The position numbers and the translations under genes are program-made. This document shows positions 17,912-35,596 of a stretch of 64,000 nt of DNA, in pieces (within the stretch, counting starts at the first letter, position 1; every line of letters begins with the position of its first letter). Where the stretch lies: contig MU858048.1 in NCBI GenBank assembly GCA_033297075.1, forward strand, positions 558,001-622,000. The letters are read 5' to 3'. The notes under the pieces were generated by a model. It was not told the DNA's origin, ran no database searches, and saw nothing but the letters and a program-made list of their open reading frames with translations. The DNA comes from Rhypophila decipiens. Taxonomy: Eukaryota > Ascomycota > Sordariomycetes > Sordariales > Naviculisporaceae.

Positions 17912-19003
17912 CTACTGAGCCTCAGAAGCCCACTTCTCCTTCAACGCCCGCTCTGGTCTCAAAAAGTAACTAATATAATACCTCTCCATGAAACCATCAC
18001 CAATCTGAGTGACCCGATGCCGTGGAGAATGCAAAACTCCGCCCGACAGCCGTGCCAACGAGTCAGCCACGTTAACAAGGGCACATCCCTCAGGTAGCAA
18101 GGGGGCAAATTCCCATGATGTCGTGTTGGAGGTCTTGTCAACTAGCTCAAATTCCAGCCCTACCCCGTCGTAGAATAGCATGGTGAAGGTCCCGCTGTCG
18201 GTGTGCAGGTTATCGACTACCTCGCTGAGGAGGGGTTTGCAGGCCTCGTAGATCAACTTGAGGCCCGAGTCGCTTTTCTCGGATTCGCGGTGGAAGGTTG
18301 AGAGTGCCTGGTCTGGTGGGAGGGATAGAGAGGTTGAGAGGCAGGAAAGAAGGGGTAGCAGGGCGCGGTGGCATTCGTGGGAGTAGTAGTGGCAGAGGTT
18401 TGATTTCTGGACAAAAATAGGGGGAAGGTGCTTTGTATTTATGTTTGTGGAGCCCGTGACATGGAACTCGTCGAGGGACATCTGACGATTACAAATTTTA
18501 TTATTAGTTCTAATACGGTTTCATGGTGGACTATGGTAGACATGAAGGAGGCTTATCAGGAAGCCATGTGTAGAAAGTACCTACCTCGAAAGTCTCATCG
18601 CATTCGCTTTGCTTATACCTGGATGACGAATTAACAAGATTAGTTGATATCTTTCAAGTATTTTAGCCGCGGATATCTCATGATTTTCATTCCCCTCTGT
18701 CTTGGGAATTATGGGAAGCGAGAGATCACCCTACCCCCGATCTTGATCTGGTTGCTGATCAAGCCTTGCGTCTTTCATCTTGTCATCTGGAGACTGAGCA
18801 AAGTATGTCTTGGCCAGAGAGTAAATTTCAGATTGCTCTTCGAGTACCAATAGGCTGCCTAGGCGAAGGTCGAGAAAGAAGACGCCCGGTGCTGTTGACA
18901 CTTGCAGGAGCTTCTGCATTTCTGCCTCATCTCTGTTTTTGAGCTTTCTGAGGTTCACGACCGACAAGTTGGCCATCTTGGGTTCTGAAGTGGAGGAGGC
19001 CAT
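17912..19003 (-). CDS. 2-oxoglutarate/Fe(II)-dependent oxygenase (isopenicillin-N-synthase-like fold)
   Basis: Three exons, 18735-19003, 18585-18618 and 17912-18481 (complement), join in frame to a 290-aa protein. The 34-nt middle exon supplies YKQSECDETFE and joins directly to MSLDEFHV. Exon 1 is the N-terminal DIOX domain (APGVFFLDLR). The catalytic half shows the metal triad His194-x-Asp196 (NLHTDSGTF) and distal His256 (SPRHRV), and the 2-oxoglutarate Arg268 in RYYISYF. This class oxidises small molecules in the cytosol and is common in fungal specialised metabolism. At 290 aa it is slightly short for the family (about 330). It is divergent from the M20 hydrolase gene. Substrate unknown. 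Confidence 0.82.
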
Positions 19004-19876: not shown

Positions 19877-21220
19877 ATGTCGCATCTTATTTCCAGATTC
19901 AGACCCGACTTTGGCCCCTACGAAGCCCTCTACAAGAAGCTTCATGCAAACCCAGAGCTCTCCTGCTACGAAGGGTCCACAGCTTCTGTGGTCGCCCAAC
20001 AGCTGCAGCTTCTCGCAGGAGTCGAGATCAAAACTGGAATAGGAGGTCACGGGGTAGTTGGTGTGATGAGAAACGGCGAGGGCCCAGTGGTTATGCTTCG
20101 CGCTGAACTTGACGCACTCCCAGTCCTCGAACAGACGGGACTCCCTTACGCCAGCACGAAGCGCACGCCCACTGGAGAACCCCTGATGCACGCTTGCGGC
20201 CACGACATGCACATGACTGCTCTGCTGGCATCCGCTCAACTACTCCACATGGCTCGTTCGTATTGGCGAGGCACCGTCGTCTTCGCCTTCCAGCCCGACG
20301 AGGAGAATGGAGCTGGTGCTAAGAGAATGGTGGACGACGGACTGTACGACACCCAGAGGCATGCAGTACCCCCGCCCGATATTGTGCTTGGCGGTCATGT
20401 CATGCCCATGAGGTCCGGGACGATATCCACACGGAAAGGCCCCTTCAACAGCGCATCCGAGTCGTTCCGGGTGACTTTGTATGGACAAGGCGGCCATGGA
20501 GGCAAACCTCATCAGACGATAGATCCAATCGTAATGGCTTGTAGCACCGTCATGAAGCTACAGACCATCGTCAGTCGAGAGATAGACCCTCAGGAGGCTG
20601 CCGTGGTCACGGTTGGGTCCATCGCTGCAGGACGAGTCGCCAACGTCATTCCCGAGGTGGCTACCTTGCTGGTCAATACCAGGTCCTTTACCGATATCAC
20701 AAGAAAGCATCTCCGAGCCTCCATTACCAGGATTGTCGAGGCCGAATCCATGTCGTCCGGCAGCCCCAAAGCACCGGTGATTGAGAAGATATCCTCCTTC
20801 CCTCTGCTTTTCAATGATTACGCCGCCACAGAGAAGGTTGAGCAAGCCATGATGGGCCATTTCGGCGGCGAGGCCTTCTCGACAGATATTCCCATCTCCA
20901 CTGGCAGCGAGGACATAGCCAACCTGGCGAATCCGGTTTCGGCCGCTGTTTGCTTCTGGAACTACGGAGGGACCGATCCCAAACTGTTTGACGATGCAGT
21001 GAAACAAGGTGGTGCAGGACAGATTCCAGGTGAGCCCCTTACAGCCAGCCCCAACGCCGACTTCGAGGCTGACAATACTATCATGGAAACAATAGCAAAT
21101 CACAGTGCTAAATTTGCGCCTGTGATTCAGCCTACCATGACTGTGGCCACGGATGCCTACGCTCTGGCGGCTTTGACGTTTCTTGAAACACGGCCAGAAT
21201 GCGTGTCACGGTCTATCTAG
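19877..21220 (+). CDS. M20D amidohydrolase (IAA-amino-acid hydrolase-like)
   Basis: A 447-aa intronless protein with an ATG in context ACAATGTC. The metal-binding residues of the M20 family are in place: His105-x-Cys107 and His109-Asp110 in HACGHDMH, Glu142-Glu143 in QPDEENGAG, His174 in GGHVMP, and the late His in NHSAKFAPVI. The M20D subfamily removes acyl or aromatic groups from amino acids, as in auxin-conjugate hydrolases, N-acyl amino acid hydrolases and some fungal detoxifying or biosynthetic enzymes. No signal peptide is seen, so a cytosolic role is likely. It runs towards the oxidase gene on the other strand, with 132 bp between the stops. Family sure, substrate unknown. Confidence 0.9.
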   Translation: MSHLISRFRPDFGPYEALYKKLHANPELSCYEGSTASVVAQQLQLLAGVEIKTGIGGHGVVGVMRNGEGPVVMLRAELDALPVLEQTGLPYASTKRTPTGEPLMHACGHDMHMTALLASAQLLHMARSYWRGTVVFAFQPDEENGAGAKRMVDDGLYDTQRHAVPPPDIVLGGHVMPMRSGTISTRKGPFNSASESFRVTLYGQGGHGGKPHQTIDPIVMACSTVMKLQTIVSREIDPQEAAVVTVGSIAAGRVANVIPEVATLLVNTRSFTDITRKHLRASITRIVEAESMSSGSPKAPVIEKISSFPLLFNDYAATEKVEQAMMGHFGGEAFSTDIPISTGSEDIANLANPVSAAVCFWNYGGTDPKLFDDAVKQGGAGQIPGEPLTASPNADFEADNTIMETIANHSAKFAPVIQPTMTVATDAYALAALTFLETRPECVSRSI

Positions 21221-21352: not shown

Positions 21353-23728
21353 TTATCCAATGCAAGACTGGATCTGCCGCCTTCCCCAGGTGTATCCCTT
21401 CCAGATCTCGCGCGGATGTGTGCTATCAGGTTCCATATTCTCTACATACTGAGCCAGGCTGTCTCTCTCGCGTCGACAGATCTCCCGAAGTGCCCCATGG
21501 CTCGTTTGAGAGAGATATCGGAAACAGGATTTACCGTCCCCAGAACAAAGGCTATCATGCATATCAACAAATGCCCAGGTAATTCCAATAAGGAGTCCAG
21601 CGCTTCTTTTAGGTAGCATGGCCAGATGAAGCATTGTCACCGCGGCTTCGGAAGGCCACTCATTGATCGCGTCAGCTAACGACCCGGGCATCGTCAATCC
21701 GACAGCTTCTGTCATCTCAAGGCCAAGCTCGAGGATCCCGATGACATTTCTCCGCATGGTTTCATCCGTACCAGCGACGGCCGACCCTTCAATCTCGAAC
21801 CCCTCCTGGGCCCGCAAGAACCGGAGGACTGCGCATCCTGCTTGGGTTGCTGATCTGGCTGGGATGCTGATTAGAGACTGAAGAAGCGACATTTGCGCAA
21901 ACCACAGAGGAAGGAGTTTGGTCATGTCGATGTTATCAGTGTCAAGTGGTTGGGGCCTGCGGCGAATAGACTTTGAAAGAGCGACGATGTCATCGTGATC
22001 CTCGCCGTCGCCGTCATCGTTATCGTCACCACATATCGCCAAAACAGACTTGAAGGACGACTCAGGATGACCGCTGACCAGGCTTTGGTACAACGGAGGG
22101 TATCCTTCGACAACTGGTTTCGATCTCCCCGAGAAGGACCAATACAGGGATCCGGCCTGAGTAACTGTCTCCTCCTCTTCCTCTTCTCCATTGCCACTCA
22201 GGGATTCGATCCAAGACTTGACGATACCCACCTCGGAATTGGTAAAGGACCCAAACATCCTTCCGCCCCATGATAGTTCCTTGATGAGTCTGCTATTGGC
22301 ACTGTCGCCTTTTTGAACCCACCAGCGGGCATTGGCCAGGCACCTGACAAACTCGGACTGCTTCTCTCGATATGACAGGACCTCCGGGTCAAGCCAATCA
22401 CTAAGCATCCTGTCACCAAGCTTGGCTCGGCTGCTGCAATGGAGTTTCTCGGCTGAGATGCATTTTCTTTGCACTAATTCCACGAATCTGGACTCGATCT
22501 CAGTCATGGCCGTATTCTTGGATGGCCCGCCGTTGTTATATTGTCCCTTGGAATACATTGTGCTGCCATCGTCCAGGGACAGGGTCTCGCACAAGTACTG
22601 GGATAATGAGAAGCCGATTTGGATTCTTCTCCAGTCTCGCTGCATGGCCGCAGCCCCGTACTTGCTCTCGACCTCTGCTAAATACCGCTCTACGGCCTGA
22701 ACCGCCATGGCTGAGTGTCCCGAGTCGGCGTTGTCGATGGAGACATGAAGATGGAAATACGCCGGATCCATGTCGAGCTCGCCTAGTTCCTTGGCCGCAA
22801 TGAGGGTCTGCAAAGTAATGCCCTCAAAGTGCAAGTTGAAGCCAACAACCTCGGGGAGGAAATGGTGGGCAAATAGGGAAATTAACAACTGCCCTACCGC
22901 TGCCCTCCAGACAGGCAACGTGGTGTCCAAGCCCCCAGACTGGTCTATAAAGTCCGGCGAGTCGGCCCGTGGCAGCTCAGGGACGGCGTGGGTCTGGAGA
23001 AGTTGGCGGTAGACGTGGACGTGGTGCTTCTTCAAGTCGCCATCCCCATATTCTTCTGACAGGATCTGCCATAGTGTTTTGGTCACGTCGCTGAAGTGGA
23101 AGGGTGCTGTGGCGGCCCTGCTGATATGTCCGAGCCAGGCTCCATCGACGAATTTCAGGGGAGCCATTTGTTTGAGCCACCGTATGGCGGACGGTCTGTC
23201 TGTGAACATCACCCGGTTGCCCCCGCCCTCACGCTGCGCAATATACTCCTCCCACTTGGCAAATACCTCATCTTGACTGCACTTCAGAACGGTTCGCAGT
23301 TCGTGAGAGTCATACTCCTTGGACAAGTGAAAAATACCGGAATTCTCCCTGGAGCCTCCAACACCAGCCTGACTGAACTTGATCGCCAATGGAAATAGAT
23401 CGAGGAGGGTGTTCAGAGCCTGGGGGATGATATCGAGATGATCCTCAAGATTGTGGAGCTTGTGGTATAGGCTCTTGTACAGGCTCTCTGGGCTGGAATC
23501 ATCTGTCTGTGTTGTTGTTTTATCTTTCTCTCGCTCTCCTGGCCTCGACTTTGGCTCAGGGTTGCCGTCAGACACGGCGTCATGTCTGGTACTGACATAT
23601 GGCCCTTGAAGACCTCGATTCCAATGAAAAATATTTCCTGGAAAAACCAGGCCGGCCAATACCAACGCGATCGAGATGGCGGGAATGGAGCAAAGCAGAG
23701 AATAGAAAGGACTATTTGCTGTTGACAT
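21353..23728 (-). CDS. Membrane-anchored haem-oxygenase-like (iron-containing redox enzyme) protein
   Basis: A 791-aa intronless protein. Residues about 10-33 are a hydrophobic signal anchor (IPAISIALVLAGLVF). Residues about 215-350 match the iron-containing redox enzyme family (haem-oxygenase fold with a diiron site): SEEYGDGDLKKHHVHVYRQLL around 224-244, HHFLPEVVGFNLHFEG around 288-302, and YFHLHVSIDNADSGHSA around 325-340. These give the expected Glu, His, Glu, His, Asp and His ligands. Known relatives carry out oxidative C-C or C-N cleavage and N-oxygenation. The C-terminal 440 residues have no domain I recognise, and include an acidic stretch (GNGEEEEEETV). It starts 1.2 kb from the divergent TyrRS-like gene. 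Family fairly sure, reaction unknown. Confidence 0.75.
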   Translation of the reverse strand: MSTANSPFYSLLCSIPAISIALVLAGLVFPGNIFHWNRGLQGPYVSTRHDAVSDGNPEPKSRPGEREKDKTTTQTDDSSPESLYKSLYHKLHNLEDHLDIIPQALNTLLDLFPLAIKFSQAGVGGSRENSGIFHLSKEYDSHELRTVLKCSQDEVFAKWEEYIAQREGGGNRVMFTDRPSAIRWLKQMAPLKFVDGAWLGHISRAATAPFHFSDVTKTLWQILSEEYGDGDLKKHHVHVYRQLLQTHAVPELPRADSPDFIDQSGGLDTTLPVWRAAVGQLLISLFAHHFLPEVVGFNLHFEGITLQTLIAAKELGELDMDPAYFHLHVSIDNADSGHSAMAVQAVERYLAEVESKYGAAAMQRDWRRIQIGFSLSQYLCETLSLDDGSTMYSKGQYNNGGPSKNTAMTEIESRFVELVQRKCISAEKLHCSSRAKLGDRMLSDWLDPEVLSYREKQSEFVRCLANARWWVQKGDSANSRLIKELSWGGRMFGSFTNSEVGIVKSWIESLSGNGEEEEEETVTQAGSLYWSFSGRSKPVVEGYPPLYQSLVSGHPESSFKSVLAICGDDNDDGDGEDHDDIVALSKSIRRRPQPLDTDNIDMTKLLPLWFAQMSLLQSLISIPARSATQAGCAVLRFLRAQEGFEIEGSAVAGTDETMRRNVIGILELGLEMTEAVGLTMPGSLADAINEWPSEAAVTMLHLAMLPKRSAGLLIGITWAFVDMHDSLCSGDGKSCFRYLSQTSHGALREICRRERDSLAQYVENMEPDSTHPREIWKGYTWGRRQIQSCIG

Positions 23729-24967: not shown

Positions 24968-26720
24968 ATGGCGACCACACAAACACCAAAGACCACCGCC
25001 GAAAGGCTAGATCTTATCACTCGGAGAATTCCTACTCAGGATGTCTGGGGCTTGGATCTCATTAAGGAGCGGATGGATAATGAGAGCAAGCTCAGGACCT
25101 TGAGGACTCTTTGGGGTGAGTCAACTGTCATTTTCCCCAGATCACCTTTTTATCTCCTTTATTCGGAAGTGGCACTCATTTTACGTCACAAGAGCTAATC
25201 TTTGTCTAATAAAGCTACATCACCGACTGGCCGACGTAAGTCTCATTATAGTTTCCATTTTACCCTTGCCAAAGTGCTCTTGCATAAATCTTTCAAGTAG
25301 GAGATGAAAAAAAAAATACATTCTTTGGGTCCTAATGCAATGTTAACCTGTTCCGTGGTGATCAAAAGCCCACGTTGGCTACTTTATTCCTCTCTTGAAG
25401 ATGGTTGAGTTTCTGGCCGCCGACGTCGAGGTATGTCTATCTTCATGCCCTTAACCCATCCTTCATACCCTTAACCCATCCTTCATACCAACAACCTCAC
25501 ATGTTACAAAGACACTCACTTACATGGCGAAATCACACCCTGTAGGTAGTCATCTACCTCCTGGACGTGTACTCCTTCCTCGACAACGTGAAATACCCAA
25601 TGGAGCAGGTCCTCCACAGGATGGAGTACTACAAGTACACCGTGCACGCCATGTTCGAGATGCTACTAGGCAGACCCATCTCTTCCAACATAGACCTTCA
25701 CGTCGGCAAGAAAGATACCCGTAGCTATGCCACCTCAGCTGGCGTCAAGTTCTTCCAGGAGTCGACCCTCCACTTTATGGACGGGTTCATCAAGGACCAG
25801 TGGCGGCTCTGGGCCGTCACGCCCCAGCAGGCTGTTCGCGAGTCCTGGGACCGTGCCTATAACCCGGACATGCTGAGTCCCATGCTCTGTCCCGGCTTGC
25901 AATCTCTGGCCGAAGAGTGGCTGCATGTTGATTTCCAGTTTGGCGGCACTGATCAGGTACGTCTATCTACATGTACCTTCCTACCCTTTCCAACTAAACA
26001 TATGCTGATTTATACCCACAAAAAAAGCGCGGACTCTTCACCTACGCAGAGCGTTTCCTCCCGCAACTGGGGTATAGCCGCCGCGCGCACCTCATGAACC
26101 CCATGCTGCCGAACCTCTTTGGCGACAAGATGTCGTCTTCACACCCGCCAAACACCAAGATCCGTCTGCTAGACGACGAGGCAACCGTCAAGGACAAAGT
26201 CGCAAAGGCACATGAGCGTTCTGTTGCTGCTGCTGCTGCCGCAGACAACACCACGGAGAACAGTAACGGCACAAGTGATGACCTGGTGATCGAAAAGGAC
26301 AACGAAAATGGTATCCTCGCCACATTGCGGGATATTCTCATCCCAATTAGCCAGCTCCAGGACGAAGGAATCGTGTCGTCGCAGATTGCTACATGTCCTG
26401 AATCCAACGAGAGTGTGGATGAGAAGAAAATATCATTCTGTCCGCGATTCACCACGCCTGACGCACCAAAAGGGAGCGTATTCACTGTTACCATCAACAA
26501 AACCGCCGACGGCGGCGGTGAGGAAGAGAAGAAGCGTGTACACTTCAAGAGCTTCGAGGAGATCCAATCTGCCTTGCAGGACAAGACTCTTGACATGGAC
26601 GTCTTGGTGCAGAATATCGCAGACGCCATTGACAGCCTTATGAGGCCTCTGCGGGAGGCGTATGAGACGAATGAGGACTGGCAAAAGGCAGATCGGTTGG
26701 GGTATCCGGAGGAGTCTTGA
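24968..26720 (+). CDS. Divergent tyrosyl-tRNA-synthetase-like protein with altered amino-acid pocket
   Basis: Five exons (24968-25115, 25215-25235, 25369-25430, 25546-25956, 26028-26720) join in frame to 444 aa; the second is a 21-nt microexon coding the start of the signature motif. The class I motifs are kept: PTGRPHVGY (53-61, HIGH box) and KMSSS (248-252), plus HVDFQFGGTDQ and HLMNPMLPNL typical of archaeal/eukaryotic TyrRS. However, the residues that hold tyrosine are replaced: Leu48 (Tyr39 in human, Tyr32 in M. jannaschii), Cys192 (Tyr166/Tyr151) and Ala199 (Asp173/Asp158), while Gln196 is kept. An Ala-, Asn- and Thr-rich insertion follows KMSSS. It is unlikely to be the housekeeping enzyme. 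It may charge another amino acid, act without tRNA, or be a resistance copy. Fold sure, function open. Confidence 0.85.
25448..25487. repeat. 20-bp perfect tandem duplication in an intron
   Basis: The 20-bp unit CCCTTAACCCATCCTTCATA occurs twice head to tail within the third intron of the TyrRS-like gene. It does not change the protein. Confidence 0.95.
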
Positions 26721-27535: not shown

Positions 27536-29644
27536 TCAGCCAACAGCAGTGCCCACCCCTCCCCAGGCCCTTAAGAATTCTTCCAACGGCTGCACGACGT
27601 TTGACCACACGGCTAGTATAAAAGCCGCGCTGCCCAGGTCAGCGGCTGGCTCGAAAGCGCAGACGATACACTTCCTGATGGCCTCGGCGATGCCATCGCC
27701 AAACTCTTCTTCAACGCGTCGCTGCCATGTAAGTGCTGTGCATAAAAGTACTGTATTGGTGTAATCTGGCTGGCTGAGCTTGTCGACGAGGGTGTTGCTG
27801 AAGAGGAGCTCTAGGAGGAGGACGCCTAGTGTGAAGAGGCGTTGTCGTGCTTGTTTTGTGTCTGAGACTGGAGGTGTTGTCTGGTTGGAGATACGGGTAT
27901 TGTTGGACAGGTGTGGCGATGCGGACTGGGGTAATTCGGGGCTCTTCAAGTATGGCTGCGATATAGAGCCGTCGGTGCTGTGACGATAGATAAAGACATC
28001 ATCTTTGCGCCAGAGACTGGGAATCAAGGGCGTTTTTCCAAGGTTGAGCATGTTTAGTACAATGGAAAGCCCGAGCCGAATGCGAGCGTCCCGGCGTGGT
28101 GTCATTCTGATGTAGGTCTCTAGATCTTCTATCTTGTAGTCATGTAATGCTGTCTGATCTGCGGGGTCAAGATGAAAGACAACACGGGAGGCCCCAACGG
28201 ATGGCAGGGTTTTCGTCATTTGTAAAAATCCTTGGCAGCTTTCGCCGCAAGAGGGACTCTTTAATATCTGACAGAAGTTGGTTATCTTTGTTATGTCATC
28301 CTTGACGGCCGTGGTCCTAGTGGTTGTTGCGGAAGGGGGAGGATGTTCATCTGCAAATCGGACATGTGGAAGGAGAGGAAGTTCGTAATTCAGCTGAGGT
28401 GTGCTATATTCCGGGGCATGTTAGAAAGGAGTGCAAATGAAGTGTAATGGAGGCAAGTCCGTTGTGAACGTCTTTTACGGCAACAGGCGGGGGACACTTA
28501 CAGATTTGTTTGTGATTCCGGGGGGTCATGGCGAGACTCGTCCCGTCGACGAAGACGCTGTTGAAGCCCAGAAAGACTCCCCGCCCTGGTTCTGTCCGAT
28601 TTTGAGACTGGTCCTGCTCCGGGCCGTCCAGCGAATAGTATAGTTGATGTGGCGAGTACAGAGATTCCTTTAGAGTACAGAGATTCCTTTAGAAGACTTT
28701 TCTCTCAGCTCTTTTAGCCTCGTCCTCAGCGTGAGTTCCTGCCGTAAAGCCGTTATTTCGGACTGCTTGGTTGTTGGGGCTTGTGATAGCGCCTCCTTTG
28801 TTTCGGGGATAGCCACAACCTCTACTCGAAGCTGAGTAGGAGCATTGATGGAGAGAATTCCAATATGAGGCACGTCCTTGAAAGAATGCCGGCCGAGTCG
28901 CTGTGTTGTGATGGTATATGAATGCCGATCACTGCCATCGCAGGAGCAAGACCAAGATGATCTCAGAGTCTCATGCAAAGTGAGAGCTTGCTGCTGTAGT
29001 TCCAGAAACGACTTGACTTTCCGCTTGTCTGGTCGAGGAGGCCGTGATGGTCGGAGTGACGCACGACTGAAGAAAAGGTATATGTTCTCATTCTTCTCCG
29101 CGATCAAAGCAAGGAGCTCGTCTTTCCGGGGAAAGAAGCTGTGACGCAGCCTATAAATATGGCTTTCAAGTGTTTTGGTATCGGGTGAAGACTGGGTATA
29201 TTGTCAGTGGCAATGCACAACCATACATATTTGCCTCGTAAGGAGATACATAATTACCCTGACAATGGGAAGCAGTTGGTGTAGTTGAGTAAGCGCATCA
29301 TTGATATCGACGAGTTGTCTGATGAACCATTCATAGTAGCCTTCTTGAACTCCCTGCCGAAGCTCTTGCTGGATGCGAGGTAAGTGCCAGAGATCAGAAT
29401 GAAGACCACCTTGAAGAAGTTCCCGCTCGTGTGCCGACAGGTCTTCCAAAGGGGCCAGAAATATCTCGAGATTCTGTGAAAATGCGATTTGCTCACGCTC
29501 AACCGCCCAAAGGAACTTTTCGAACTCCCGCTCAAAACGCCACAATGTCTTGAAGTGTTTGCATGTCTGGCCGACTTGTTTGCCCGCCTGGCAGAGTAAA
29601 GGGAATGCCCCGAGCACCAATCCAGCGATCTCGACGCCCGACAT
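27536..29644 (-). pseudogene. DUF7580-type fungal protein, frame broken by a 19-bp duplication
   Basis: Three exons are clear on the complement: 29258-29644, 28502-29191 and 27536-28403. Exon 1 (MSGVEIAGLVLGAFPLL) is the usual N terminus of DUF7580 proteins; the last exon has the degenerate kinase-like part (ARIRLGLSIVLNMLNLGKTPLIPSLWRKDDVF) and the RFADEHPPP linker. Exons 1 and 2 splice in frame (LLPIVR/SSPDTKTLESH). Exon 2 then meets TAA at 28670, inside a perfect 19-bp tandem duplication. Counting only one copy, exon 2 stays open and joins exon 3 in the correct phase. Such proteins often sit beside NACHT and heterokaryon-incompatibility genes; function unknown. An alternative intron (donor at the first copy, acceptor CTTCAACAG) would also restore the frame but is weaker. 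Confidence 0.7.
28654..28691. repeat. 19-bp perfect tandem duplication
   Basis: The unit GAGTACAGAGATTCCTTTA is present twice in direct succession. On the coding (minus) strand this adds 19 nt, shifts the frame and creates a TAA in exon 2 of the DUF7580 gene. Confidence 0.97.
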
Positions 29645-30093
29645 ATGGACGAATACCAGGTTTTTAAGAGAGAACACGGAACCCAATTCACGGGAAGGAA
29701 CAAACTAGTTTCGTAACTTCTGTTGAGTGTGAAAGGTGAGGAGGTGCGGAGCAAGAGGGTCCAACTTCCGTACGGAGTGGTGAGGCTCTGAGTGTGTGGA
29801 AGGAACGACTGGGCCTGCAGACTGTTAGTCGGCAGGCGCAGTCTCGCTCTCCTCAGCAACAGAGGCTTCGGCAAGCACCCACTGCCCAAGAATCGATTGC
29901 CCTGCATGAAGAATCCCCGAACTAACTGATTTGGGTCGGTATGAAGTTAATCTTCCCCGCTCATTACCCATTGGTCTTCAAACCAGCTGGCCTGATGAAT
30001 ACGCCCACATCATACGGTTATGTCGACAAGATCCGTCTTTGGTTTTCACGCCCGATAACCAGCAGTAAATCATCTGTAAAGAAAAATGTACTC
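29645..30093. promoter_or_regulatory. Divergent promoter region
   Basis: Spacer between the minus-strand DUF7580 gene and the plus-strand C2H2 gene. The C2H2 frame is open back to an ATG at 29941, which may be the true start instead. No site assigned. Confidence 0.45.
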
Positions 30094-31801
30094 ATGGCAA
30101 CCACCGAAGAGACATCGGCTATTACCATCTCATCTGAGACTCAGAGATGTTTTTTATGTCTCAACAGTCTCTGTTCGCGATTGGAATTGGGCGCCGACGA
30201 CAAGAGTAGTGACGAGGAAAGTCAGACTTTGGCATCCTGCCAGGATGCTCTGGGCCGGTTCAGAGTATGGGCGTCCAATATAGGTGCTGCACAACCTGCA
30301 AGATCGAACAAATCTCTCGATTACCGACTTCGAGATGCCTTGAAGATGAAATCGGCTGTTATTTCTGGTCTTAAAAGGCTTCGTATTAGTGCGAACCAAG
30401 GTATGTCAGGAGGACCTCGAGTACTTGGTACAAAGTCTGTTGACCGATTCGTTGTTTTCTTGCTGATGTGGAGGTTCCAACCCGCCTAGTATTGGCCATT
30501 CTGTCAGGACTCGCACCAAATAGGGAGACCGATATGGGCATAGCGGATTCAGACGACAATACAGGCCCCCGAACCCCAACATCAACAGAGCTCCAGGAGT
30601 TGTTATTGACTGTTCAAGACCTGCTCAGACATCTGTTCAGTCTGTCCATTTTGATCCGGAGAAGACGACCCAAGGGAAGGCTCCCACCTTCGACTCCCTT
30701 CGAGCACCCCGAGAGCTCACCAGATGTCATCAACGTAGGAGACAGATTTCCAAAGCTCAAGCAACGTCCTTGGCTTCCACGAAGGCTAGGCAATGTAACA
30801 GCACAACGACGACATACAATACAATATAGGCAGACTCATAGAGAAAGCCTGGCCCAGATTCACAGCCATGATGAAACAAAAACACTGACCGGAAGTGGAT
30901 CAGCAACAACATTCGAGGAACCCTCGCTCATATCGGGCCTCGACTGGCCACTTCCTACGTCGGGATCTAGTCGACTCTCGGTGCTAACTACGGCCACGTA
31001 TTTCAACTCAAACTTTGACGGCGAAGGAATTATGGGCCGCAAGATCCCAGACCTCTCTGATATGGTCTTGGAAGGTGTTCGGTTAGAATACGGATCGCTC
31101 TTTGAATGTCCGTACTGCCGAACTATCCAGGTTGCTGAAAACCGACTGGATTGGAAGTAAGAGTGCTTAAGAGCCAACCCATCCCAAGACAGGGCTATAT
31201 ATGGCTATTTTCCGCTGACAAGTTGTATAGACGACATGTATACGCCGACCTCCAGCCCTACGTGTGTACTTTTGAAGACTGCCGATCGGCCACCACGTAC
31301 TTTGAAACCCGGCACGCATGGTTCGACCATGAAACAGAAGTCCACCGTCAAAAATGGTATTGCCATCTATGCTCCCGGGACGGGGAGGGTGCCAAACAAG
31401 CCTTTACCTTCACTGAAGAAAACGAATTGAAGACGCACTTCTTAACAAAACACCAAGACGAAATCACGGCCGGTCAATTACCCTTGATTTTAGCGGCGTG
31501 CAAGGTTCCGTTGAGCAACTTCGGACCGTCATCCTGCCCGTTTTGTGATGAATGGCTGAACCAGACGGAGACGCCATCCCTTGCTGATTACGACAACAGC
31601 GCACAATTTTGCCGCCACCTGGCCAGACATTTGCAGCAGATTGCTCTGGACGCGCTTCCAATTGCGATTGAGGGTCTCGAGATCAATTCGCCCGAGAACT
31701 CGGATGAAGCTGACAGGACTGATGCAGCTGAGTCCAACCATGATTCAGACTCAGATCATCTAGATAGAATATTCGAAGAGGCATGGGAACCATTATCATA
31801 G
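30094..31801 (+). CDS. Fungal C2H2-type (acuF-like) zinc-finger protein
   Basis: Three exons, 30094-30400, 30490-31156 and 31231-31801, join in frame to 514 aa; introns are 89 and 74 nt with GTATGT and GTAAGA donors. The N-terminal half carries the helical region (SLDYRLRDALKMKSAVISGL, WLPRRLGNVTAQRRHTIQYR) typical of a large fungal family annotated as oxidoreductase acuF-like C2H2 proteins. The C-terminal half has Cys/His pairs in order: ECPYC, RRHVYADLQPYVC, RHAWFDHE..H, WYCHLC, H..KH, SCPFC and FCRRHLARH-like FCRHLARHLQQIAL. The acidic tail ends WEPLS. I prefer the ATG at 30094 (MATTEETSAIT) because family members start just before this helix; 29941 would add 51 residues. Molecular role unknown; usually found near NLR-type genes. 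Confidence 0.8.
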
Positions 31802-32083
31802 TTTGGTCGGGGTCTCGGGTTGTCTGGGACCTCCTGCATACTCGTCCATTTCAGTCAAAAACATGAGCAGGGTCGGGTGAGTTGTTAGATGCCCAATGAC
31901 CTCTCAGCTGGACGCAACCGCGGCAAATCCCCGCCAACCACAGCAGCGCTGATGGTCGTGTGGGTGGTATGTACAGATATCTCAGAGAGCCTTACTTGTT
32001 TCCCACTTCACGTATCATGGACAGCCGTCGCCTTCCTCAAATCTTCCTCGGGAGCAGCTTCCATTTAAGCTCTCCACCGCGCC

Positions 32084-35000
32084 ATGTCCGGACTCGAGAC
32101 CCCGGTAGCCCTCGGGCTAGCCTGCAGTGTTTTCCAAGTCATTAGTTTCGCAAGAGATGTCTGCACGATTGGACGAGCGATATGCGAAAAGGGGGAACCG
32201 GGCGACTCCGCAGCCTCGCTCACCAATTCGATGAGCAACCTGACCGCCATAATCGAGGATATTAAGACTGCGGTCGGCAGCGCATCGCCATCCATGAGCC
32301 CAACCGACAAGCGAATGTTCGGCATCGCCCAAGACTGCAACAAGGCGGCCCTTGAGCTCAAAGCCGAGATCGACAAATATTCGGGCGCCGCGTCTTCCGC
32401 CCAAGGCAGTAAACTCCGATCGACCTGGGTCGCTGTTAAGTCGGTAGTACGTTCAAGAGCCAAGTTGGTGGACAAGTTGGAGAAACGATTGCAAACACAT
32501 CAGAATACACTCGAAACAGAATTATTGGTCAAGATCTGCAGCAAAGCCGATGCAGCGAGGCTCTGCCAGCAGGACGAGTTCAAAAAGCTTGACGGCACGC
32601 TTCGTGATTTCGTCAAGAGGTTTTCTGATGGAGAGACTCGTATGGCTGCGTTGCTGGTCCAGCACTCTGAGTCAGTCAAGGACCATGTTACAGAGGAGAC
32701 TGCGGCTGTCAAGGTCCATGTGACAGAGGAGACTGCGGCTGTCAAGGACCATGTTACAAATGGGACTGCGACTGTCACGGCGGCGATCAGCGACTCGGCA
32801 CTGGACTCGAAGAAGGCCGTCCAGGAGGTGCACAGCACCATGAGACATTCGAACATTCGTGCAGATATGAAAAGGAGGCGCAAGAAACTTATCAAGAGCT
32901 TGAAATATCCTACAATGAACGGTCGGCGCAATCTGATTGAGGATCCTCACGCAGAAACATTTGAATGGATATTTACTGGACGTCCCCTTCCGAATGCTGA
33001 TGCCTATTCCGATTCCGATTTGTATGAACAGTTTGATGATGGGGTTGATGATGAGGTTGATGACGATGGTCAAGAGTTTGATTACCAGTACGACGACGGG
33101 TTCTTTCTGATGAAGGACGCCTCGTCTCGGATGGAGGAGGCCTCGTCTCGGTTATCTGCTTGGCTTCGAGATCCAGCCCAGCAACTCTTTTGGATTACGG
33201 GGAAGCCCGGGTCAGGAAAGAGCACCTTGGTCAAGTTTCTGGTGGACGACCCAAGAACTCGGGACGGCCTTACCTCTTACGAATGCGGCGCTCGAGATGT
33301 CGTTATTCTGTCACATTTTATCTGGAGTGCCGGGCAAGCGATGGAAAGGTCCGTCAGGGGCATGCTCTGCAGTTTGATTTACCAACTGATCGACGAAAAT
33401 GGCCCGATGAGTGATAGGGTTCTTGAAAGGTTTCCCCAGACAAAAGCCAAAGATTCTTGCTCGGACTGGTCGGAGAAAGAGCTTCGAAATGTGCTGCACT
33501 TTCTCCTCGGTGACTCAAGAAAGGCGTTCTGCTTCTTCATTGATGGGCTGGATGAGATCAGCGAGACGGATGGCCAACCCAAGCTCATAGAGCTGATCAG
33601 GGAGATGCGAGCGGGATCGAATATGAAGATGTGTGTTTCGAGCCGGCCAGAACCGATACTGAAGAAACATCTTGGCGTGTTTCCCATGATTCGTATGCAG
33701 GATCTGACTGAAGCGGACATCTTCAAGTTTACATCTAGTCTTCTTCGGAGAAGGCTTTTAGATAACAGTATCGATCTGAACACGTCAGAGTATCAGACGC
33801 TGGTGGACGATGTTTGCTGGAAGGCAGAGGGTGTGTTTCTTTGGGTAGTACTGGCGGTCAGGAATCTACTGGTGGGCATAGAAAAAGGAGATGAGATGGA
33901 GCAACTCCAACGACGACTCGACCTGATGCCATCCGAGCTCAAAGATCTATATCGAGCCATGTGGATTCGCCTGGGGGCAGAAAAACAGATATACCAAGAG
34001 GATGCTGCATCGTACTTCAACCTCATCCTCCTTATCAACGATACTAGTAGTTTTATGACGCGGGCATCGAAAATTTTCAGCACTTCTCTGCAACTCCTAC
34101 TCGCAACAGACAGTAAACTTGCCGACCGAGCTCTGTTGACCACCCCTGAGCCTCTCCCTTCTGACGATGAACTTCGGACACTGGCAAACAAGATGGCACA
34201 TCGAGTAGAGACCAGCTGTCTGGGTCTTCTCGATATTAAAACCTCGGACACGCATCCAAACGAGATGAAACTAGAATTTATTCACGGCTCGGCAAAAGAA
34301 TTTCTCGAGACTGATGCTGAGGGTCGGGCACTGTTAGAGCTTGATAACTCGACGAAACAGGAGCGTGTCTTCAGAATGGTAAAAGCTCGACTTGCAATGT
34401 CCTTCCTGGTGTACCTCGGGAACAGCAGGTTTGAAGGCTTCTACACACCCGATGAAGCGTCGGAATTTATATCGAAGATCGTGAGACTGTGGGAGATGAA
34501 TCACATCTCCGAGACACAGAAACTGCAGCTGGCCTTGTTATCCCGGCCACTGTTCAAACCATACCTCCGGCTCTGTACTGGTGTACCTTTTGAGGGTCCT
34601 TCACCATATTACGCAGACCTCTTGGGTGCCGCGGCGCATACAGGATTTTTGAGTTTCCTCGAGCAAGCGATGAGAACAGAACCATGCTGGGGGGTGACAG
34701 CTGGACCAGTTTCGGTCCCGTACATGAGCTACCTTGTTGCAATGGCTCTAGAAGGCTTGGCTCAATCCTCCAAGTGGGATGATGGAGTCAAAACAGTGCG
34801 CTGGCTCCTGAAGCACGATGTCAACCCCAACTTTCCCACCCGACCATACGACTATGGCTCGGCTTGGAAGCTCCCAATTAGCCCCCTGAAAGCAGCGGTG
34901 TCATTCCTGGTGAAGCAAGGTTTACCCCTAGACCAATATGCTCCGGTTGTAGATATTCTTAGTTGTATGCTACAGGCTGGGGGTGATCTCTCAAGTCCGC

Positions 35001-35596
35001 TTATTCTTGTCGTGGAAAGGAATTGGTGGGACGATAGGCCAAAGCTGCAGCTCGAAATTATGCGGTCGGGAGTGCCATATCTCAGGGTATATATCGAGGT
35101 TGAGACCGCGCTGGTCATAGAGTTGTTCGTGCGCAAATATGTCAGGCACAACGCGACAAATGCGGCGAGCGTCAAGCAGCTACTTGCAATGCTAGAAAGC
35201 TCTCCCAGGTCATATTTGCCAGTAAAGAGGATTGCGGTAGCCAACAACTTCTCAGTTGAGGAAGATAGGCCGCTTGGACATCCAAGTGGAGTGGACCATG
35301 AAAAATCATTCTGGGCAACCAGCGATCCGGCTTGTCTGTCGCGAATACAGGAGCACCTGAAGGGTGATCTGGAATCGAATTGCCCATCAGAACCCCACGA
35401 TGGCTCTGATTGCGAGGATTATCCTGCTAATTTATTTGAGATCTCCACGTCTTGCATACATCACATGGTCAAGGAAGTTACAGAAACAGGGAAACAGACC
35501 TCCTGGGCTGATGTTTGGGCGGATTGGTTTTCTAAAGATATCGTTTGGAGAAAAAGGGACCCGCGCCTGGGGATCCCAGAGGCATGGCCTAGTTAG
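32084..35596 (+). CDS. NACHT NTPase (NLR/STAND-type) with fungal N-terminal helical domain
   Basis: A 1170-aa intronless protein. Residues 1 to about 150 are an N-terminal helical domain (MSGLETPVALGLACSVFQVI) of the kind seen on fungal NLR-like proteins. Residues about 198-230 are three 11-aa repeats (VKDHVTEETAA), then a basic helix and an acidic linker. The NACHT domain has Walker A GKPGSGKST at 373-380 and Walker B FFIDGLDE with Asp487, followed by the SSRPEP sensor motif. The C-terminal 500 residues are helical, without clear ankyrin, WD or TPR repeats. Fungal NACHT proteins act as signal-responsive switches in non-self recognition and regulated cell death. It follows the DUF7580 and C2H2 genes. 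Domain call sure; partner unknown. Confidence 0.88.
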   Translation: MSGLETPVALGLACSVFQVISFARDVCTIGRAICEKGEPGDSAASLTNSMSNLTAIIEDIKTAVGSASPSMSPTDKRMFGIAQDCNKAALELKAEIDKYSGAASSAQGSKLRSTWVAVKSVVRSRAKLVDKLEKRLQTHQNTLETELLVKICSKADAARLCQQDEFKKLDGTLRDFVKRFSDGETRMAALLVQHSESVKDHVTEETAAVKVHVTEETAAVKDHVTNGTATVTAAISDSALDSKKAVQEVHSTMRHSNIRADMKRRRKKLIKSLKYPTMNGRRNLIEDPHAETFEWIFTGRPLPNADAYSDSDLYEQFDDGVDDEVDDDGQEFDYQYDDGFFLMKDASSRMEEASSRLSAWLRDPAQQLFWITGKPGSGKSTLVKFLVDDPRTRDGLTSYECGARDVVILSHFIWSAGQAMERSVRGMLCSLIYQLIDENGPMSDRVLERFPQTKAKDSCSDWSEKELRNVLHFLLGDSRKAFCFFIDGLDEISETDGQPKLIELIREMRAGSNMKMCVSSRPEPILKKHLGVFPMIRMQDLTEADIFKFTSSLLRRRLLDNSIDLNTSEYQTLVDDVCWKAEGVFLWVVLAVRNLLVGIEKGDEMEQLQRRLDLMPSELKDLYRAMWIRLGAEKQIYQEDAASYFNLILLINDTSSFMTRASKIFSTSLQLLLATDSKLADRALLTTPEPLPSDDELRTLANKMAHRVETSCLGLLDIKTSDTHPNEMKLEFIHGSAKEFLETDAEGRALLELDNSTKQERVFRMVKARLAMSFLVYLGNSRFEGFYTPDEASEFISKIVRLWEMNHISETQKLQLALLSRPLFKPYLRLCTGVPFEGPSPYYADLLGAAAHTGFLSFLEQAMRTEPCWGVTAGPVSVPYMSYLVAMALEGLAQSSKWDDGVKTVRWLLKHDVNPNFPTRPYDYGSAWKLPISPLKAAVSFLVKQGLPLDQYAPVVDILSCMLQAGGDLSSPLILVVERNWWDDRPKLQLEIMRSGVPYLRVYIEVETALVIELFVRKYVRHNATNAASVKQLLAMLESSPRSYLPVKRIAVANNFSVEEDRPLGHPSGVDHEKSFWATSDPACLSRIQEHLKGDLESNCPSEPHDGSDCEDYPANLFEISTSCIHHMVKEVTETGKQTSWADVWADWFSKDIVWRKRDPRLGIPEAWPS
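32675..32773 (+). repeat. 33-bp coding tandem repeat, three copies
   Basis: Three 33-bp units encode VKDHVTEETAA, VKVHVTEETAA and VKDHVTNGTAT between the N-terminal domain and the NACHT domain. The first two differ at only two bases, so the expansion is recent. Confidence 0.93.

Follow-up and report, generated by a model that had tools for sequence, protein, structure and literature searches.

A tyrosyl-tRNA synthetase-like protein with a rewritten amino acid pocket beside two oxygenase genes in Rhypophila decipiens

The window, i.e., the whole stretch of 64,000 nucleotides of the Rhypophila decipiens genome analysed here, encodes a tyrosyl-tRNA synthetase (TyrRS)-like protein in which both hydroxyl-binding residues of the tyrosine pocket and a third tyrosine ligand were replaced, and the gene adjoins genes for a heme-oxygenase-like diiron oxygenase (HDO) and a 2OG-Fe(II) oxygenase. 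In the best explanation, given a probability of roughly 0.58, the protein is a TyrRS-derived class I amino-acid-activating enzyme which left translation and passes a non-tyrosine aminoacyl group to a small acceptor in a pathway involving the HDO and the 2OG oxygenase. The TyrRS-like gene and the two oxygenase genes look like a small specialised-metabolism gene cluster. The open-licence papers searched contained no description of such a TyrRS-like family, nor of TyrRS-like and HDO genes occurring together.

Gene model and pocket residues of the TyrRS-like protein

The five exons (Table 1), joined according to the predicted splice model, encode a TyrRS-like protein of 444 aa. The product was identical (100% identity over 100% of the length) to the public 444-aa protein P0005, named 'tyrosine tRNA ligase [Rhypophila decipiens]', and the five-exon model proposed by the sequence-only reading thus agrees with the annotation of the submitters. 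Alternative splicing restoring Tyr and Asp was ruled out, as the three codons concerned lie inside exons and the spliced product equals the public annotation. The open exons, the existence of three Rhypophila sequences and the conserved clade likewise ruled out a pseudogene. Downstream of the gene (window 27536-35596) were a DUF7580 match and a long open frame of the NACHT/NPHP3_N (NLR-like) type.

Table 1. Positions of the TyrRS-like gene and its neighbours in the window
Feature	Position	Strand	Remarks
Recoded TyrRS-like gene, exon 1	24968..25115	+	ATG at 24968; Leu48 codon 25109-25111; sequence and splice model
Recoded TyrRS-like gene, exon 2	25215..25235	+	Splice model, public protein
Recoded TyrRS-like gene, exon 3	25369..25430	+	Carries PHVGY, the HIGH-type motif
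Recoded TyrRS-like gene, exon 4	25546..25956	+	Tyr81, Leu83, Tyr86, Gln196; Cys192 25888-25890; Ala199 25909-25911
Recoded TyrRS-like gene, exon 5	26028..26720	+	KMSSS 26127-26141; stop 26718-26720; C-terminal domain without anticodon-reading residues
HDO (PF14518)	21353..23728	-	PF14518 E 8.7e-30; predicted N-terminal helix, residues 7-27
2OG-Fe(II) oxygenase	17912..19003	-	Inferred exons 19003-18735, 18618-18585, 18481-17912; PF03171 E 8e-09 on last exon
M20 amidohydrolase (TIGR01891)	19877..21220	+	Between the two oxygenase genes; cluster membership uncertain

PF00579 was the only domain found in the protein by the domain search, and the TyrRS fold with the HIGH-type and KMSKS-type motifs was present. 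The signature blocks were TLWATSPTGRPHVGY and MLCPGLQSLAEEW, as claimed earlier; Leu48 aligned with yeast Tyr43, Cys192 and Ala199 with the conserved Tyr and Asp, and Gln196 was kept. Tyr81 and Tyr86, also pointed out from the sequence alone, indeed differ from the canonical Leu and His. Beyond these positions, the alignment revealed that Leu83 departs from the canonical Ala and that Gln214 was kept. The protein scored 86.1 bits against NF006330 and 47.2 bits against TIGR00234, below the equivalog cut-offs for tyrosine--tRNA ligase (220 and 113.8 bits, respectively). All four recoded proteins tested fell below both cut-offs, and all five canonical ones, including that of the same genome, were above them.

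Other TyrRS genes of the genome

A search of the genome with PF00579 gave ten matches on seven contigs. The separate canonical TyrRS that the sequence-only reading had proposed to look for was present on contig C118, as indicated by its placement in the tree and by the curated models (238.8 bits for NF006330 and 158.8 bits for TIGR00234, above both cut-offs), which ruled out the window gene as the only TyrRS of the genome. Contig C118 is taken to encode the canonical cytosolic TyrRS and C215 a putative second copy with a canonical pocket; C10 was assigned from translated motifs to a probable mitochondrial-type TyrRS, and C16 and C85 to probable TrpRS. The tree placement covered C118, C215 and the public orthologue of the C275 protein, and the curated-model check of genome copies with a canonical pocket covered C118. 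The C215 gene (C215:3-1250 (-), L012), located at the contig end and adjoining an amino-acid permease gene, encodes a TyrRS with a Tyr/Tyr/Asp pocket, a long branch and an apparent frame break, and is apparently a decaying or specialised copy. Contig C275 encodes a second recoded paralogue, with Ala, Cys and Ser at the three pocket positions.

In the available text of PMC4301749, duplicated fungal aminoacyl-tRNA synthetases (aaRSs) are treated as presumably cytosolic and mitochondrial versions.

A family of recoded proteins in fungi

Two protein searches for TyrRS-like sequences were used, with the best 120 of 197 and the best 120 of 556 matches, so that the distribution described here is incomplete. 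The resulting alignment, with rows longer than 480 aa left out, comprised 170 rows: 111 canonical (Tyr at the second pocket position, Asp at the third), 51 recoded (Cys or Thr together with Ala, Ser, Gly or Met) and 8 unclassed fragments. At the position of Tyr151, the recoded rows had Cys (40/51) or Thr (11/51), and at that of Asp158 one of Ala, Ser, Gly and Met; the counts at residues 192 and 199 are not independent evidence because the family was recognised by those positions. Two other positions are independent of the class definition: Tyr was retained at the Tyr32 position in a single recoded row (10 of 51 had gaps), and the His70 equivalent was Tyr in 45/51 (5 gaps and 1 Phe). The Ala67 equivalent was mostly Leu (29/51). 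The positions kept were KMSSS and the Gln173 equivalent, each in 50 of the 51 recoded rows with one gap, and the Gln155 equivalent (46/51).

The Leu-Cys-Ala combination at residues 48, 192 and 199 was common to 14 aligned sequences, from Rhypophila, Fonsecaea, Cladophialophora, Lasallia, Glutinoglossum, Stromatinia and Sclerotinia, so the pocket changes of the window protein are not due to chance or decay. The clade of the C275 protein was characterized mostly by Ala-Cys-Ser, with Thr-Cys-Ser in Diplodia and one Ala-Cys-Ala in Macrophomina. Gln- or His-Thr-Gly was found in Purpureocillium, Ophiocordyceps, Hirsutella and Aspergillus avenaceus, Phe-Cys-Ala in Aspergillus clavatus, A. pseudoviridinutans and one Mollisia protein, and Ala-Thr-Ser in Geoglossum, besides single variants such as Val-Thr-Ala, Leu-Thr-Met and Phe-Thr-Ala. 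The Paecilomyces lecythidis member retained Tyr at the first position, which was missing from several partial recoded sequences. Three annotated recoded models (P0015, P0246 and P0258) had no PTGK stretch before the HIGH-type motif, probably because of a missed small exon, which is present there in the window gene.

A tree was built from 67 chosen rows (46 of the 51 recoded and 21 of the 111 canonical). One branch with a support of 100/100 split the 46 recoded from the 21 canonical sequences, and conservation of the pocket changes in a clade, which the sequence-only reading had proposed to check, was thus observed; as the tree was rooted at the midpoint, the term clade presupposes that the canonical enzymes are ancestral. 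The recoded rows still formed one branch (SH-aLRT 100) after removal of the pocket and anticodon columns, and this second tree implied at least 10 changes at residue 48 and at least 6 at residue 199 within the family. Prokaryotic relatives, identified by a scan of genome contigs, came from five loci, all archaeal, and all five had the canonical Tyr, Gln and Asp and the DQRK stretch. The listed members carry the database names tyrosine--tRNA ligase or tyrosyl-tRNA synthetase, aminoacyl-tRNA synthetase, nucleotidylyl transferase and hypothetical protein. Housekeeping annotation thus conceals a fungal enzyme family whose pockets have been rewritten.

Recognition of tRNA and the question of catalysis

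The aromatic residue that we take to stack on the anticodon in M. jannaschii (Phe261) and yeast (Phe296) corresponded to a gap in 49/51 recoded rows and to Tyr, Phe, Trp or His in 96/111 canonical ones, this column being the least sure because the loop is gappy in the alignment. The presumed anticodon-reading Asp (286 in M. jannaschii, 321 in yeast) was kept in 14/51 recoded versus 105/111 canonical rows. The Lys175 equivalent, Lys in all 111 canonical rows, was Gly in 46 of the 51 recoded ones. In the window protein, the aromatic position aligned with a gap and the Asp position with Val406. The C-terminal part could still be aligned to the domain with which yeast TyrRS binds tRNA, and the protein may therefore bind some RNA. 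From the counts of kept and lost residues in the 51 recoded and 111 canonical rows, the enzyme therefore looks competent toward an alpha-amino acid and not built for tyrosine or for the anticodon of tRNA-Tyr.

The strongest competitor, to which we would give between one chance in five and one in four, is that the protein still charges a tRNA with another amino acid and feeds the pathway or the ribosomes with an unusual aminoacyl-tRNA. The retention of the whole TyrRS fold, C-terminal domain included, speaks for it, as do the precedents of SbzA (aaRS-like, aminoacyl transfer from tRNA) and VlmA (seryl-tRNA in valanimycin biosynthesis), but most members are devoid of the anticodon-reading residues and of Lys175. 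Moreover, ARAGORN detected no tRNA-Tyr or odd tRNA at the window or C275 locus, although intron-bearing tRNA genes could be missed; it identified tRNA-Ser(AGA) and tRNA-Gly(UCC) in the window and tRNA-Glu(CUC) and tRNA-Arg(ACG) at C275. The whole-genome tRNA search listed 62 matches, with the two window tRNAs not among them.

Some TyrRS proteins acquired signalling or splicing roles elsewhere, and the loss of the tyrosine-binding residues would fit a non-catalytic or regulatory paralogue of this kind. The conservation of KMSSS and of the Gln155 and Gln173 equivalents at the frequencies given above would be unexpected if catalysis were dispensable, which makes such a role improbable, at about one chance in ten.

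The neighbouring HDO

The HDO gene is oriented divergently to the TyrRS-like gene, with about 1.2 kb between them. The public model, P0125, has 780 aa; starting at its first ATG, the open frame would be 11 aa longer. The best fold matches of the predicted model were RohS (20.5), HrmI (20.3) and SznF (20.0), followed by the weaker FlcD (15.7), CADD (13.4), BesC (13.2) and AetD (about 10). The metal-ligand-like residues E226, H236, E302, H328, D332 and H338 were invariant in 122/122 aligned sequences and comprise a set of three His and three carboxylates, assigned by pattern and not by superposition. The spacing of the E-H and H-D pairs resembles that of SznF, whereas the last His is spaced differently. 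In the comparison of the HDO profile with solved structures, no HDO was matched and three chance matches were obtained. The window HDO differs from RohS, HrmI and SznF in being fungal, in its 780 aa with an N-terminal helix, in the lack of a sequence-level match to a solved HDO, and in a large C-terminal helical part (about residues 410-780) outside the matches.

The best 120 of 645 matches of the HDO protein were considered. Among them, the Orbilia proteins P0229 and P0238 combined the HDO with an aminotransferase class I/II domain (PF00155) in one protein, which hints at an amino-acid substrate there. In the available text of a review of HDOs (PMC13108848), the superfamily is placed in bacterial species, and a term search of that main text gave no mention of fungi; the fungal HDO is thus of interest in its own right.

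Linkage of the TyrRS-like gene with the oxygenase genes

The HDO and the 2OG-Fe(II) oxygenase, a PF03171-domain protein with the HxD...H facial triad, are the most informative surroundings of the TyrRS-like gene. At least three genes of the 45.7-Mb genome matched PF14518, namely those in the window and on C275 and C3, and two of these genes adjoin the two recoded TyrRS genes, the C275 HDO being located about 3 kb from the second one. The window 2OG oxygenase had one strong homologue in the genome (50% identity, 155.6 bits; next best 38.7 bits), which lies on C275 as well, at a distance of about 3.7 kb from the second recoded TyrRS gene. As PF03171 overall gave 15 genome matches, the linkage argument concerns this 2OG subfamily and not the domain. 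The TyrRS-like, HDO and 2OG oxygenase genes, and no others, were shared by the two loci at E 1e-4 in a comparison covering C275 except for 0.9 kb. No relative of the M20 amidohydrolase was found on C275, hence its uncertain membership of the cluster. The C275 region (C275:15343-28523) also carries a Pyridox_ox_2 gene and two MFS matches, for which no counterpart was found in the window.

For three of the four introns in the window TyrRS-like gene, the C275 TyrRS-like gene has one at the same position and phase. The two loci may descend from one ancestral cluster, so they may not be fully independent. Within the family, the window and C275 proteins belong to separate branches, and both branches contain members from several fungal classes; the arrangement, if inherited, would thus be old. 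The third HDO gene, on C3 (L025:7717-9900 (-)), belongs to an apparently separate cluster spanning L025 and L026 with a more distant 2OG oxygenase and UbiA-type, methyltransferase-type and ABC transporter genes, and no TyrRS-like gene is present at this locus.

Outside this genome, linkage was judged from equal contig sizes of the listed TyrRS-like and HDO matches (the latter being the best 120 of 645). Four sizes were shared among the matches listed: 806,513 and 170,728 (Rhypophila), 112,195 and 3,318,606. The lichen Lasallia pustulata proteins P0010 and P0189 were both on contigs of 112,195 bp, which suggests that its TyrRS-like and HDO genes share a contig; the size shared in Xylona heveae is uninformative at 3.3 Mb (3,318,606). 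None of the metagenome contigs agreed in size among the matches listed.

It could be argued that the linkage is coincidental and that the TyrRS-like protein acts alone, as the listed HDO and TyrRS-like proteins of Endocarpon pusillum, Geoglossum simile and G. umbratile were on contigs of different sizes. Such a coincidence is nevertheless very unlikely, at clearly longer odds than a regulatory role: both recoded genes of the genome have both neighbours, the Lasallia contigs are equal in size, and the chance of an HDO within 10 kb of both recoded genes was about 2e-6, a value for the HDO alone which assumes uniform placement and ignores possible shared ancestry.

Proposed function

The presence of the fold, the HIGH-type motif, KMSSS and the Gln155 and Gln173 equivalents led us to propose that the enzyme most likely binds ATP and an alpha-amino acid and forms an aminoacyl-adenylate. 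As neither the two hydroxyl-binding residues nor the Tyr151 equivalent are retained, this amino acid would not be tyrosine. The aminoacyl group would then pass, probably without tRNA-Tyr, to a small acceptor in a pathway also using the HDO and the 2OG-Fe(II) oxygenase, such a shared pathway being suggested by the linkage at two loci of one genome. Going by fold similarity alone, the HDO would most likely oxidise a nitrogen of the substrate or acceptor. Speculatively, the M20 amidohydrolase could later remove the aminoacyl group.

The view of the window protein as a paralogue with a changed substrate, put forward by the sequence-only reading, was strengthened by the altered pocket, the canonical TyrRS elsewhere in the genome and the conservation in a clade. 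Among the options it offered, tRNA-independent (or tRNA-divergent) ligation is favoured, with the anticodon aromatic, the Asp and Lys175 mostly lost; a modified aromatic amino acid may be the substrate; and a resistance copy is disfavoured, as the protein no longer has the residues with which tyrosine is bound and tRNA-Tyr is read. A second copy of a housekeeping target within a biosynthetic cluster can bring resistance, and an altered pocket might protect against a cluster-made TyrRS inhibitor, but a self-resistance copy must make Tyr-tRNA-Tyr and retain the residues for its cognate amino acid and tRNA, whereas the window protein has lost the hydroxyl, amino-group and anticodon residues and falls below both curated TyrRS cut-offs, which leaves this the least probable of the explanations, with the canonical-pocket copy on C215 fitting it better, although no HDO match was found on that contig.

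Within the preferred reading, an amino-acid-activating enzyme acting on a small acceptor, the boldest version is built on fold similarity and analogy and is tentative, at perhaps one chance in seven. The cluster might encode a fungal pathway forming N-O or N-N bonds, convergent with the bacterial hydrazine synthetases and the valanimycin route. The HDO would N-oxygenate an amine and the recoded TyrRS would aminoacylate the resulting hydroxylamine without tRNA, which would be chemically natural if the HDO is an N-oxygenase. The 2OG-Fe(II) oxygenase, with a double-stranded beta-helix as in cupins, would complete or oxidise the product. The TyrRS-like family would then comprise naturally diversified amino-acid selectors, with residues 48, 192 and 199 as a specificity code.

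If the family is indeed one of ligases, it would give access to fungal chemistry that searches for NRPS or PKS genes miss, supply genetic-code work with TyrRS pockets evolved in nature, and serve to test how a biosynthetic enzyme can arise from one essential for translation.

Comparison with known systems

Compared with canonical cytosolic TyrRS (yeast 2dlc, human 1n3l), the window protein has both hydroxyl ligands and the Tyr151 equivalent replaced, lacks the anticodon-reading aromatic and Asp, and is below the curated cut-offs. M. jannaschii TyrRS has been engineered for non-canonical amino acids; the window protein is natural and fungal, and is further changed at the equivalents of 67, 70 and 151 and in the tRNA-binding part. 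Cyclodipeptide synthases have a class I aaRS-like fold without HIGH/KMSKS and the use of ATP, and this identity was ruled out by the presence of both HIGH-type and KMSKS-type motifs. A hydrazine synthetase, in which a MetRS-like domain is fused to a cupin, was also ruled out, as the window protein contains only PF00579.

Two precedents come from the available text of published work. SbzA of the SB-203208 pathway is an IleRS-like aminoacyl transferase passing an amino acid to a small molecule (PMC6331615). It is likewise a class I aaRS paralogue in a biosynthetic cluster with HIGH and KMSKS kept; unlike the window TyrRS-like protein, it is bacterial, IleRS-derived and dependent on Ile-tRNA (PMC6331615). 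In the hydrazine synthetases, which are MetRS-like and cupin didomain proteins, a class I aaRS-like domain likewise uses an amino acid, and the pathway involves an N-hydroxylated one (PMC11705231). Those enzymes are MetRS-like and cupin-fused, whereas the protein described here is TyrRS-derived and single-domain, with separate HDO and 2OG oxygenase genes. Both of these precedents for aaRS-derived biosynthetic enzymes, as presented in the text of the two sources, are bacterial.
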